DNA from: Candidatus Kuenenia stuttgartensis
GTDB lineage: Bacteria; Pseudomonadota; Alphaproteobacteria; SMXS01
DNA: 34,992 nt
NCBI GenBank assembly: GCA_943329845.2
Contig: CALQFM020000044.1
Coordinates: forward strand, 1 to 34,992
Direction of reading: 5' to 3'
In this document: positions 14,035-26,152 of the stretch, piece after piece
Layout of the letters: each line of letters starts with the position of its first letter
Numbering within the stretch: position 1 is the first letter of the stretch
Position numbers and translations under genes: made by a program
Notes under the pieces: model-generated
What the model saw: the letters and a program-made list of their open reading frames with translations, nothing else
Databases searched by the model: none
Told to the model about the DNA's origin: nothing

Positions 14035-14625
14035 CTAGAAAATGTTGAAAGACCGGCCGCTCAGCCCGATGGGCCATCGGCCCAGCTCGAACAGCCGGAA
14101 CTTGAGCGCGAAGGGATGCTCTTCCACCGCCTGGGCGGCCAGCACCAGCGCGGCCTGGTAGCAGGCCTGCACCGCGGCGCCCGTGGCGGCCTCGATCACC
14201 GCGTCGTCCTCGACCGGCCACAGCGACGCCGCGCTGGCGATCGCCTCGACCACGACGGGCCCGGCGCTTTCGGTGATGAACGCCAGCGTGTCGGACACCG
14301 TGTCCTCGTCGAAATACTCCAGCGCTTCCCGGCTCAGGTCGGCGCGGAGCTGTTCCTCGACCTCCCAGCCCTCGCTGTTCAGGTCGGTGCTGTCGGCGGC
14401 GTCGCCCGCTTCGGTCCAGTCCTCCAGCGGCGCCGGCGAGGCATCGGGGAAGCCCAGCATGTCCAGGTAGCGCTGCGACAGGTCCAGCTCCTCGGCGCTG
14501 AGCGGCTGACCGATGCGGCTGAACCAGGGAATGCGGGTAACCACATCGCCCAGCCGGCGGATCGCGGTCAGCGCGGCGAGCTGGTCGTCGTCCAGGCCAT
14601 CATAGTCGTCGTCTTCGTCGTCCAT
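14035..14625 (-). CDS. Hypothetical acidic protein upstream of xth
   Basis: A 196-residue acidic protein I cannot assign. It starts with an Asp-rich stretch (MDDEDDDYDGLDDDQLAALT), followed by mostly helical sequence with several hydrophobic helices (VVVEAIASAASLWPVEDDAV; ACYQAALVLAAQAVEEHPFA). There is no signal peptide or clear membrane segment. The ATG has a good Shine-Dalgarno, GGAGGA, six bases upstream. Close linkage to xth (nine bases) suggests co-transcription, but gives no firm clue to function. Confidence 0.75.
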   Translation of the reverse strand: MDDEDDDYDGLDDDQLAALTAIRRLGDVVTRIPWFSRIGQPLSAEELDLSQRYLDMLGFPDASPAPLEDWTEAGDAADSTDLNSEGWEVEEQLRADLSREALEYFDEDTVSDTLAFITESAGPVVVEAIASAASLWPVEDDAVIEAATGAAVQACYQAALVLAAQAVEEHPFALKFRLFELGRWPIGLSGRSFNIF

Positions 14626-15049
14626 GGGAATTCCTCCGCGCCCTGTTTTAGGGGGCCGGGGCGGTCAGGTCGAGCCCGGATGAGGGTGGCCCGGAAAAGC
14701 GTAAGCCCGGCCAAGATAAAATTCCTGACCGGGCTCTGCGCTGTTACGCAAGGTACCAGGAGGGGGGTCCGGTACCGGCAACGTCAGATGCAGAACACCA
14801 AGGGAGGGGATGTGATACTGCACCGCAAAGGACGTCGCTGGGCATGTATTTGGTTGGCGAGTCACAAATTTTCAACAGTGATTTTGCCTATTTTTGCATC
14901 ACAGATATGCGTTCCATTTCACATTTTGTGATCAAGGCCTTAGCTGTTGCCCGCCAAATAGACGACGCTGCCCATAAACCGGGCGGGAAGCGCCGCACAT
15001 TATCGGGTGGGGCGAATCACTGAAAGAAAAACCGGTTTTTCAATGCAAG
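14626..15049. other. Intergenic region between lolA and the xth operon
   Basis: 424 bases without a convincing gene. It probably contains the promoter of the xth operon. A GCCCGG...CCGGGC inverted repeat lies at 14705-14734, and GGTACC occurs twice around 14750-14780. The middle (about 14850-14930) is AT-rich. A 47-codon frame at 14788-14931 has no family resemblance or ribosome-binding site and is not called. A 16-base perfect palindrome at 15026-15041 is listed separately. Confidence 0.45.
15026..15041. repeat. Perfect 16-base palindrome after lolA
   Basis: GAAAAACCGGTTTTTC is its own reverse complement and lies nine bases beyond the lolA stop codon. As RNA on the minus strand it could fold into a short A/U-rich hairpin followed by UUUC, making it a weak terminator candidate. 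As DNA it has the symmetry of a dimeric regulator site. Confidence 0.45.
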
Positions 15050-15706
15050 CTAGTTTTTCGTCGGGGGCCCCCCGCGTTTCGGGCGAGGGTCCTTCCAGGT
15101 CCAGAGCGACTTGTCGAGCGGCACGTTGGTCTGCAGGTCGTCAAGGGTGACGATGGTGGTCTGGCCCCGTTCGTCGAGCACCTGCCATTCGGTCAGCTTC
15201 AGCGGGTTGCGTGAAAACGTCAGCAGCATGCGACCCTCGTCGCGCTTCTTCGGGTCGGTGATCGCCACGTTGATCCACTGGGCGTTGCGCCTGATGCCCA
15301 GCACCTCGACGTCCTCGCCGAACATGAAGTCGCTGCGCACCAGCGGCCGCAGCGGCGTGTCGTTGATCGGCCAGCGGGTGACCTGCTTCAGGTCATAATC
15401 GATCAGGGTGATGACCGTACCGTCGCTGACCACCAGGATCGGCGTCGGCGGCGTGTATTCGAAGCGCAGTTTGCCCGGCTTCTGCAGCGACATGGTGCCC
15501 GCGCTGACCTGGCGGTTGGGCGCCACCTGCTGGAAGCCGGCACGCAGCGAGGTGATGCCCTTGAGATAGGACTGCACCGCCGCCAGGTCCTGCGCCTCGG
15601 TGGTGGACAGTGTCTCGACGGCTTCACGGGACACGGGCGCCGCGGCCGCTGGCGCAGCGGATGCGAGCAGGGCGGCGGCGAGAGCGGATGCGAGAATGCG
15701 ATTCAT
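15050..15706 (-). CDS. lolA: Outer-membrane lipoprotein carrier LolA family protein
   Basis: Periplasmic chaperone that carries lipoproteins from the LolCDE transporter to the outer membrane. The 218-residue product has a Sec signal peptide rich in alanine (cleaved after about residue 22). The fold of an open beta-barrel with lid is indicated by family segments: YLKGITSLRAGFQQVAPNRQ, GTMSLQKPGKLRFEYTPP, LVVSDGTVITLIDYDLKQVT, MLLTFSRNPLKLTEW, LDDLQTNVPLDKSLW. It ends PRPKRGGPPTKN. LolA commonly lies near ftsK in proteobacteria, and here ftsK is upstream on the same strand with a transglutaminase gene between. Confidence 0.92.
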   Translation of the reverse strand: MNRILASALAAALLASAAPAAAAPVSREAVETLSTTEAQDLAAVQSYLKGITSLRAGFQQVAPNRQVSAGTMSLQKPGKLRFEYTPPTPILVVSDGTVITLIDYDLKQVTRWPINDTPLRPLVRSDFMFGEDVEVLGIRRNAQWINVAITDPKKRDEGRMLLTFSRNPLKLTEWQVLDERGQTTIVTLDDLQTNVPLDKSLWTWKDPRPKRGGPPTKN

Positions 15707-25362: not shown

Positions 25363-25806
25363 ATGCTCCAGATAAAGCCCTATGAACCGTTCCATCTCCA
25401 CGCGACCGCCACCCTGTGGCTGGCTAGCTGGCGTTCCACGGGCGTCACGCTCGCGGAGGAGGTCACCTATGACGACTTGGCCGCACGCATCCCGGTCGAA
25501 ATCGCGGCCCAATGGTCGGCCTTCCTGGCTTGGGAAGGCGATACGCTGGTGGGGTTGCTGGCCTTGAAGCCTGCCACCTCATGCCTCGACCAGCTGTTCA
25601 TCCTCCCGCAAGCACAGGGGCGCGGGATCGGCGCCGGGCTCCTCGACCGGGCGAAGCGGGAGATGCCGGATGGGTTTTGGCTGCGCACGGTCGCCGCGAA
25701 CGCCGGTGCCCGCCGCTTCTACGAACGGCACGGCTTCCGCCATACCGAAACCGTCGCGGACGCCCGCCTAGGACATGAAATCGCGATTTATCGGTGGCCC
25801 GCCTGA
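25363..25806 (+). CDS. GNAT family N-acetyltransferase
   Basis: A 147-residue single-domain GNAT acetyltransferase. The acetyl-CoA motif A is DQLFILPQAQGRGIGAGLLD (Q/RxxGxG/A reading QGRGIG), and NAGARRFYERHGFRHTETV is motif B with the usual F/Y-E-xxGF pattern. The substrate is unknown. It follows the UbiH-type gene by 53 bases on the same strand and is convergent with the DUF1192 gene. Confidence 0.88.
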   Translation: MLQIKPYEPFHLHATATLWLASWRSTGVTLAEEVTYDDLAARIPVEIAAQWSAFLAWEGDTLVGLLALKPATSCLDQLFILPQAQGRGIGAGLLDRAKREMPDGFWLRTVAANAGARRFYERHGFRHTETVADARLGHEIAIYRWPA

Positions 25807-25815
25807 TCCTGGCGC

Positions 25816-25846
25816 AAAAAAAGGCCGCTAGCAAATGCCTGCGGCC
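25816..25846 (-). terminator. Intrinsic terminator, minus strand
   Basis: GGCCGC (25841-25846 on the minus strand) pairs with GCGGCC (25823-25828) around a 12-base loop and is followed at once by seven T (25816-25822). It ends transcripts from the DUF1192 side and forms the 3' end of the candidate small RNA. Confidence 0.85.
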
Positions 25847-25899
25847 AAGTCTGGGGGAGTCATCGGATCGGTCAAGGGAGGGGTAATACCGATCCGATG
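25816..25899 (-). ncRNA. Candidate small RNA with anti-Shine-Dalgarno loop
   Basis: The minus-strand transcript would open with CATCGGATCGGT (25888-25899), loop ATTACCCCTCCCTTG, then ACCGATCCGATG (25861-25872): a perfect 12-bp stem. The loop presents CCCCUCCC, which could pair with GGAGG-type ribosome-binding sites. Another C-rich single-stranded run (ACTCCCCCA) follows, then the terminator. A TATGGT -10-like hexamer (25905-25910) would place the 5' end at the foot of the stem, giving about 84 nt. Hairpins exposing CU-rich anti-SD motifs followed by a terminator are the hallmark of several alphaproteobacterial trans-acting RNA families. It could instead be just the 3' trailer of the DUF1192 mRNA. 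Confidence 0.5.
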
Positions 25900-25922
25900 T
25901 GACAACCATAGGCGATGGAATA

Positions 25923-25937
25923 TTAACCCTGGATTAA
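25923..25937. promoter_or_regulatory. Perfect CtrA-type box
   Basis: TTAACCCTGGATTAA matches the full CtrA site TTAA-N7-TTAA exactly. It lies between two convergent genes, where no mRNA promoter is expected, but about 25 bases upstream of the candidate small RNA on the minus strand. Confidence 0.55.
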
Positions 25938-25960
25938 CGGCGTCCGGATTTCCGGCTTTC

Positions 25961-26152
25961 TCACCTGAACAGCTTGGCCGCCGCTGATTGGCTGGATTCC
26001 TTGGAATCCATCAGCTTTTTCGTGCGCAATATCTCGGCCTCGAGCAGCGCGATGCGCTCCTTCAGTTCATAAAGCGAGAGATTGTCGAGTACTTCCCGGG
26101 CGAGATCGGCGGCGCCGGCCGGGCGCGGGCGGGGCAGGTCATCCAAATCCAC
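25961..26152 (-). CDS. DUF1192 family small protein
   Basis: A 63-residue protein typical of DUF1192: an acidic, proline-containing head (MDLDDLPRPRPAGAADLARE), then a coiled-coil core (LDNLSLYELKERIALLEAEI), and the terminal AAAKLFR. The function is unknown. The start is GTG at 26152, because GGAGG lies five bases upstream. A longer reading from TTG at 26188 would place that ribosome-binding site inside the gene. The gene is divergent from the quinone oxidoreductase with 63 bases between starts. Confidence 0.88.
   Translation of the reverse strand: MDLDDLPRPRPAGAADLAREVLDNLSLYELKERIALLEAEILRTKKLMDSKESSQSAAAKLFR

Follow-up and report, generated by a model that had tools for sequence, protein, structure and literature searches.

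A conserved candidate small RNA with C-rich single strands behind a putative FeuP/PhoP-like regulator box in an alphaproteobacterial family

RESULTS AND DISCUSSION

Layout of the locus

The gap between two convergent genes in the window, which is the whole stretch of DNA analyzed (34,992 nucleotides), contains a TTAA-N7-TTAA repeat, a −10-like hexamer, and a hairpin region on the minus strand. Is a small RNA gene located here, which regulator may use the repeat, and on what might the RNA act? The original prediction had proposed a CtrA-activated and cell cycle-controlled RNA of about 84 nt, the CU-rich loop of which masks Shine-Dalgarno sequences. All its coordinates, those of the box, TATGGT, the stem, the loop, the C-rich strand, the terminator, the 84 nt, and the convergent genes, were correct.

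The candidate, sRNA A, is encoded on the minus strand between the GNAT gene (plus strand) and the DUF1192 gene (minus strand), on the same strand as the latter and 61 nt 3′ of its stop codon. The features are as follows.

25363 to 25806, plus strand: GNAT acetyltransferase gene, the convergent neighbor (Pfam Acetyltransf_10/1/7)
25961 to 26152, minus strand: DUF1192 gene upstream of sRNA A, coding from the ATG at 26152 to 25964 with the stop codon at 25963 to 25961 (Pfam DUF1192, 59.1 bits, cutoff 25.5)
25934 to 25938, minus strand: upstream half-site GTTAA of the regulator box (5 of 5 columns invariant in nine genomes)
25923 to 25927, minus strand: downstream half-site GTTAA of the regulator box, GTTCA in G007, G008, and G009 (4 of 5 columns invariant in nine genomes)
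25905 to 25910, minus strand: −10-like hexamer TATGGT, 12 nt 3′ of the box (TA invariant in nine aligned genomes; N12 common to other boxed genes)
25816 to 25899, minus strand: predicted 84-nt transcript of sRNA A, with the start deduced from the −10-like hexamer
25888 to 25899, minus strand: 5′ arm of the 12-bp stem (fold; two-sided changes at 6 of the 12 stem pairs in nine genomes)
25873 to 25887, minus strand: loop AUUACCCCUCCCUUG with the core CCCUCCC at 25876 to 25882 (7 of 7 core columns invariant in nine genomes)
25861 to 25872, minus strand: 3′ arm of the 12-bp stem (fold and covariation)
25847 to 25860, minus strand: single strand ACUCCCCCAGACUU, an alphaR8/MmgR-like module (conservation; subthreshold suhB match)
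25816 to 25846, minus strand: intrinsic terminator composed of a GC hairpin, 25846 to 25823, and seven U, 25822 to 25816 (sequence, fold, and covariation)

Together with the preceding G, the TTAA-N7-TTAA at positions 25937 to 25923 reads GTTAA-N6-GTTAA (25938 to 25923). The 12-bp stem is perfect, positions 25899 to 25888 pairing with 25872 to 25861. The fold of 89 nt around sRNA A reached −36.7 kcal/mol compared to −19.7 kcal/mol (standard deviation, 3.1) for shuffled sequences, a z-score of −5.5, and none of 200 shuffles was as stable. A simple consensus scan listed no sigma-70 promoter at sRNA A, and its terminator was likewise not listed.

Conservation of the RNA and of its promoter

sRNA A was located 3′ of the DUF1192 gene in nine of the ten family genomes (G000 to G009, with G000 being the own genome of the window). 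A DNA search of relatives recovered the stretch from each of the six further genus genomes, from G004 as the 3′ end only; the other five copies were 74 to 88% identical, two of them aligned over just 75 to 90 nt. The copies beside the DUF1192 gene in G007, G008, and G009, which belong to the family and stand outside the genus, were missed by this search and seen by reading the region. Two-sided changes were present in 7 of 20 pairs (14 cells) of the nine-sequence alignment, which none of 500 shuffles reached, and 96.9% of the alignment cells were paired compared to 20 to 50% with partners slid. Further pair types, one of five covariation measures, were reached by 114 of the 500 shuffles. The stem arms were 70 to 75% identical across the nine genomes with the pairing kept. 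Because the pairs covary while CCCUCCC is invariant, pairing is what is preserved in the stem, and the sequence itself in the loop core; a covarying stem around a constant loop was what the original prediction had named as a check. The linker ACUCCCCCAGACUU had 12 of 14 invariant columns in the six genus copies and 8 of 14 in all nine copies. This stretch is very probably the gene of a conserved small regulatory RNA, and the originally predicted small RNA with a promoter of its own is backed by conservation and covariation.

The copy in G004 (G004:C119:39-116, L163) comprises the terminator half and a downstream flank like that of the own genome, 98% identical over a 43-nt match. Its 5′ half is unrelated sequence near a contig end, due to either a rearrangement or an assembly join.

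Over nine genomes, identity was 51% in the flank upstream of the box, 67% in the N6, 60% in the spacer, 69% in the −10 hexamer with two of its six columns invariant, and 51% between the −10 hexamer and the stem. The conserved half-sites amid these less conserved flanks favor a transcript of its own over a mere trailer of an mRNA. TTAA-N7-TTAA was kept in six genus members and read TTAA-N7-TTCA in G007 to G009. Taken alone, the repeat was not striking. With up to one mismatch it occurred twice in the window compared to 0.47 times expected, a number reached by 5 of 100 shuffles, and it was found at 7 places in the own genome compared to 12 for the reversed pattern.

A set of boxed promoters

The pattern GTTHA-N6-GTTHA-N12-TA occurred at 44 sites in the ten family genomes compared to 16 sites for the reversed pattern. 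The numbers were 35 compared to 5 in the seven genus genomes, the own one included, and 6 compared to 0 in the own genome. Enrichment was absent from the three remaining family genomes, which stand outside the genus (9 compared to 11 reversed). With N5 instead of N6, 1 site was found in the ten genomes compared to 12 reversed. Without the −10 element, GTTAAY-N5-GTTMA was not enriched in the family (33 compared to 32 reversed), with 26 compared to 9 in the genus. The six sites of the own genome belong to sRNA A, a paralog named sRNA B, a PepSY-regulator-kinase operon, two DUF6491 genes, and one DUF4168 gene, the DUF6491 and DUF4168 products being of secreted types as judged by eye. Sorting placed 36 of the 44 sites into recurrent groups and left 8 ungrouped. 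The groups were as follows.

PepSY operon, 10 sites; sRNA A, 8; sRNA B, 4; an additional boxed RNA of G005, 1
DUF6491 genes in two groups, 4 and 2; a group that includes DUF4168 in G000, 3 (its other two members assigned by box sequence only)
Lipoprotein gene after the kinase gene, 2; another secreted protein, 2

sRNA A of G007 is absent from the pattern matches because its TA is one base off. The lipoprotein gene after the kinase gene is of the 17-kDa-antigen type by Pfam in G000, and the G000 box at this position is without the TA.

A box was present in front of the PepSY gene in all ten family genomes. Reading past the PepSY gene showed the regulator gene in eight of them; in G004 and G006 only the PepSY frame was seen, and the kinase gene was read in G000 only. 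The operon on G000:C12 encodes a PepSY protein, a 223-aa regulator, and a 451-aa kinase, and its promoter reads GTTCA-N6-GTTTA-N12-TACAAT. The regulator is the family protein nearest to the CtrA probe (see below) and is PhoP/PmrA-like: the G001 protein scored 219 bits with the PmrA and 213.7 bits with the PhoP model of NCBIfam, both below the cutoffs, and 190.8 of 350 bits with the CtrA model. At orthologous DUF6491 sites the sequence is GTTCA..GTTCA in G000 and GTTAA..GTTCA in G001, G002, and G003. Because these sites differ in this way at the first half-site, one regulator probably accepts both GTTCA and GTTAA.

Paralog B was found with model R1 in G000, G001, G002, and G004 at 66 to 74 bits and not in the other six of the ten family genomes. 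It shares the stem-loop and carries the loop stretch CCCUCCCUU, the linker CUCCCUAAACUU, a GTTAAC-N5-GTTCA box, and a TATACCA-type −10 element. In G000 it is situated between two genes which we take to be ubiK-like and lgt-like.

Two observations concern the neighborhood of boxed genes. A conserved box, GTTCA-N6-GTTCA, is located at G000:C12:50815 after the kinase gene and before the 17-kDa-antigen-type lipoprotein gene, and a box at about this position was present in seven of eight family genomes examined. In G001 and G002, another regulator gene lies close to a boxed DUF6491 gene; an operon was considered for the two and rejected: in G001 a gene on the opposite strand, presumably of the Rieske type, intervenes.

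Assignment of the box to a regulator

CtrA is present in most of the alphaproteobacteria that were studied in PMC2877005. A protein search with a CtrA probe gave no match at an E value of ≤1e-60 in any of the ten family genomes, most of which are drafts. Eight other genomes of the class served as positive controls in a second search with a looser limit, which found full-length orthologs in all eight of them, with 67 to 82% identity and E values of 1e-103 to 8e-126. Among the eight of the ten family genomes covered by this second search, the best matches in seven were paralogs with 37 to 39% identity (E values of 4e-41 to 8e-44). The best match in G002 was a 122-aa piece with 77% identity at the end of a 9.6-kb contig, which may be foreign, followed by a match with 37% identity. 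CtrA was rejected as regulator of sRNA A on the basis of this search with its positive controls. A family without a full ctrA in ten genomes would be unusual for Alphaproteobacteria, and closed genomes would be worth checking for it.

FeuN is a small secreted protein. In Sinorhizobium meliloti, the proposed FeuP site is TTCA-N7-TTCA, which occurs also upstream of feuN, and the predicted layout of feuN-feuPQ is a gene for a small secreted protein followed by those for the regulator and the kinase (PMC3616915). A FeuP-type operon of a small secreted protein, a response regulator, and a kinase with a box of its own is present in G000. The PepSY-regulator-kinase system may be addressed as FeuP-like, a label derived from the proposed site and the layout and implying putative orthology. 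The regulon in S. meliloti and the box set share a direct repeat with an 11-bp period; they differ in that the half-sites are GTTHA and the small protein carries PepSY here. An exact TTCA-N7-TTCA was present in three of the seven boxes of the own genome, and the sRNA A box, with TTAA-N7-TTAA in six and TTAA-N7-TTCA in three genomes, was not exact. The A boxes of the genus read GTTAA/GTTAA compared to GTTCA/GTTTA for the operon box, neither being a perfect TTCA-N7-TTCA. Because these half-site spellings differ, affinity of one regulator for both boxes is something that we infer. Searches of the open-licence literature listed no FeuP-controlled small RNA.

The proposed FeuP site is one base away from the CtrA site per half-site, which adds a caution: TTAA-N7-TTAA by itself is no evidence of CtrA. 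The original prediction had seen no other explanation for the site than CtrA. This was wrong because no full ctrA was found and because the box belongs to a set that contains the promoter of a FeuP/PhoP-like two-component operon; CtrA control and the coupling to the cell cycle are given up with it. What favors a CtrA-activated, cell cycle-controlled RNA is the perfect TTAA-N7-TTAA over the −35 region of sRNA A and the example of the Caulobacter noncoding RNA CcnA, which has a CtrA box in front (PMC8959179) and thus shares a CtrA-type box with sRNA A. CcnA, however, is 182 nt long and encoded at the replication origin (PMC8959179), and no full CtrA gene was found here. With full orthologs in all eight other genomes of the class and in none of the family, with GTTCA as the second half-site in three genomes, and with no enrichment of TTAA-N7-TTAA in the own genome, CtrA control is most improbable. 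Improbable, if to a lesser degree, is also that the box belongs to another OmpR-family regulator, for instance CenR, which would control the PepSY-regulator-kinase operon as well. The CenR motif is TGA-N8-TGA (PMC9275681), and it was found on the other strand in three of the seven boxes of the own genome. The box set fits CenR equally well. Because these are the same three boxes that match TTCA-N7-TTCA, the motif alone cannot tell FeuP from CenR. CenR also serves the envelope and regulates its own gene, and the 11-bp period is a further likeness to its regulon. On the other hand, cenR and cenK are unlinked and at separate loci in Caulobacter (PMC9275681), whereas the regulator and kinase genes are adjacent here behind the gene for a small secreted protein. 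The sRNA A box contains TGA-N8-TGA on neither strand and the B box has no match either, although both boxes fit the FeuP motif imperfectly, too. The linked kinase and the small secreted protein favor the FeuP layout, and a FeuP/PhoP-like regulator remains the preferred assignment.

Kinship with alphaR8 and other small RNA families

An Rfam search of the window at gathering thresholds gave no match. The window copy of sRNA A scored 23.7 bits with suhB (RF00519), below the gathering cutoff of 41. Among all A and B copies, only the A copy of G007 passed with 42.8 bits; the A copies of G003, G005, G006, and G009 reached 26.0 to 31.6 bits, the B copies 29.3 to 36.5 bits, and the A copies of G001, G002, and G008 were not listed at an E value of ≤1. 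A 25.1-bit suhB match in L148 is adjacent to the A copy, on the opposite strand. An alphaR8 gene separate from sRNA A is present in the own genome at G000:C1:88661 and scored 63.6 bits.

The alphaR8 RNAs (MmgR, SisA to SisD) and sRNA A have in common a CUCCC-A(G/A)ACUU-(G)GGCC strand directly before a GC terminator with a U run, so that a Rho-independent terminator follows the core in both. Sibling copies within one genome are a further likeness, and SisA is an Hfq RNA (PMC12559287). The alphaR8 core is the 10-nt UUUCCUCCCU after a weak hairpin (PMC12559287). In contrast, the core of sRNA A is GACUCCCCC, the window copy reading GACUCCCCCA after the 12-bp hairpin, and this hairpin with its invariant CCCUCCC loop core takes the place of the alphaR8 hairpin. 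The promoters of sisA to sisD are without a common motif (PMC12559287), whereas the siblings A and B have a common box. A class-wide model search with stricter filters yielded matches in 138 of 385 genomes at an E value of ≤0.1, five of these genomes being family members. The best match outside the family had 45.2 bits compared to 66 to 100 bits for the A and B copies, and 23 of 25 outside loci that were read contained TTCCTCCCT and were alphaR8-like (exceptions, L108 and L123). Because outside scores were lower and the read loci were mostly alphaR8-like, a close match is, for the genomes sampled, a feature of the family level. sRNA A may have descended from an alphaR8 RNA and may work like one, as its 3′ module suggests, and is not classed as one.

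RcsR1, SorY, and SorX showed weak Rfam similarity to sRNA A in the hairpin, the CU-rich linker, and the terminator, with 21.4, 19.2, and 16.1 bits, far from the respective thresholds of 60, 111, and 46.6. Enterobacterial small RNAs run by OmpR-family regulators are OmrA/OmrB (EnvZ-OmpR) and MgrR (PhoPQ). A likeness to sRNA A is that two siblings under EnvZ-OmpR repress outer-membrane proteins (PMC12559287); a difference is that the regulator of sRNA A is a predicted one.

Possible targets

The 9-nt loop complement AAGGGAGGG was found at 10 places in G000 compared to 17 for the reversed sequence and at 10 compared to 13 in G005. Three of these 20 places are the antisense strands of the A copies of G000 and G005 and of the B copy of G000. 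The complement stands just before a possible start at G000:C77, G005:C1:515070, G005:C3:533654, and G005:C4, and no gene had it at its ribosome site in both G000 and G005. Besides A, the sole place common to both genomes, as judged by eye, is an element downstream of lolA in the window (see below). As to the idea of a CU-rich loop that masks Shine-Dalgarno sequences, the loop core is invariant, but the loop complement was rare and gave no common ribosome-site target in the two genomes searched. sRNA A is likely a base-pairing repressor. A shorter stretch may suffice for pairing, or sRNA A may pair with another RNA instead.

Proposed mode of action and alternatives

sRNA A is probably a stand-alone gene, controlled through its box by a FeuP/PhoP-like envelope regulator, with C-rich strands that would act on ribosome sites. 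An envelope signal would be answered by the response regulator of the G000:C12 operon, which would bind the direct repeat GTTAA-N6-GTTAA at about −27 and −38 in place of a −35 element. Transcription would start at the first base of the hairpin and generate an 84-nt, probably Hfq-dependent, trans-acting RNA that exposes C-rich single strands at two places, in the CCCUCCCUU loop and in the CUCCCCC linker. These strands may pair with G-rich ribosome-binding sites and lower the translation of a set of mRNAs, probably for envelope proteins, and paralog B with the same kind of box may back up sRNA A in some species. The basis in the sequence is the conserved RNA structure, the conserved promoter, the common box set, and that no full ctrA was found; regulator binding, the signal, expression, Hfq dependence, pairing, and the targets we infer.

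Three alternatives touch the RNA itself. The hairpins could belong to the DUF1192 mRNA as nothing more than its trailer and terminator, or to an RNA processed out of this trailer. sRNA A is indeed on the strand of this gene, 61 nt past the stop codon, and no minus-strand terminator was listed in between by the consensus scan, which also missed the terminator of the RNA itself. Yet a conserved box and the TA of the −10 element stand between the gene and the hairpin with the spacing of the other boxed promoters, the loop and linker are conserved beyond the needs of a terminator, and paralog B repeats this layout at a different locus, so that a mere trailer is quite unlikely. Still less to be expected is that sRNA A is the relocated alphaR8 (MmgR/suhB) RNA of this lineage. 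The common 3′ module and the 42.8 bits of the G007 ortholog at a cutoff of 41 point in this direction, but the own genome has its separate alphaR8 gene, the window copy scored 23.7 bits only, and a strong hairpin with a second C-rich loop replaces the alphaR8 hairpin. Somewhat easier to accept, albeit unlikely, is a function of the C-rich strands mainly on another RNA, as a sponge or decoy, instead of on ribosome sites. The sponge RNA CrfA of Caulobacter pairs with the alphaR8 core and sponges SisA (PMC12559287), and the loop complement is rare in the own genome; against this, SisA also represses mRNAs directly by its C-rich strand (PMC12559287), and no candidate partner RNA was identified here.

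An extension of the preferred reading to the whole family is doubtful: in a family that has seemingly lost CtrA, an autoregulated FeuP/PhoP-like envelope system may run sibling RNAs (A, B, and two in G005) with a doubled anti-Shine-Dalgarno strand in a rigid loop and a linker, and one stress signal would brake many G-rich ribosome sites at once. 

In the preferred reading itself, the regulator operon, the box, the sibling RNAs, and the secreted proteins give a family-wide and testable circuit and suggest an alphaR8-like RNA under an envelope two-component system.

Similar RNA candidates

G005 contains two more boxed candidates with CCCCTCCC, at G005:C5:274862 and at G005:C1:323401, the latter with a TTAA-N7-TTCA box. 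Behind this box, the stretch G005:C1:323300-323484 contains two successive CCCCTCCC with inverted repeats visible by eye; in the minimum-energy fold of the stretch as a whole, pairing runs across the two instead. A third candidate type of C-rich-loop RNA (AAGTCCCCTCCC, CTCCCCAAACTTGG) occurs in four genus genomes and G007, at G000:C10 (36584), G002:C13, G003:C1, G001:C12, and G007:C16. It has no clear box and follows an apparent terminator of another gene.

A conserved intergenic RNA-like element without an Rfam match of note is located in the window at 14650 to 14980 on the minus strand, between lolA (15050 to 15706) and the gene at 14035 to 14625. The 5.6-kb stretch of G007 that was examined for it contains no lolA. 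The element was present near lolA in all five other genus genomes examined, and it comprises GCAGTATCACATCCCCTCCCTTGGTGTTCTGC, with a loop that is nearly that of sRNA A, followed by GGTACC-GGACCCCCCTCCT-GGTACC.
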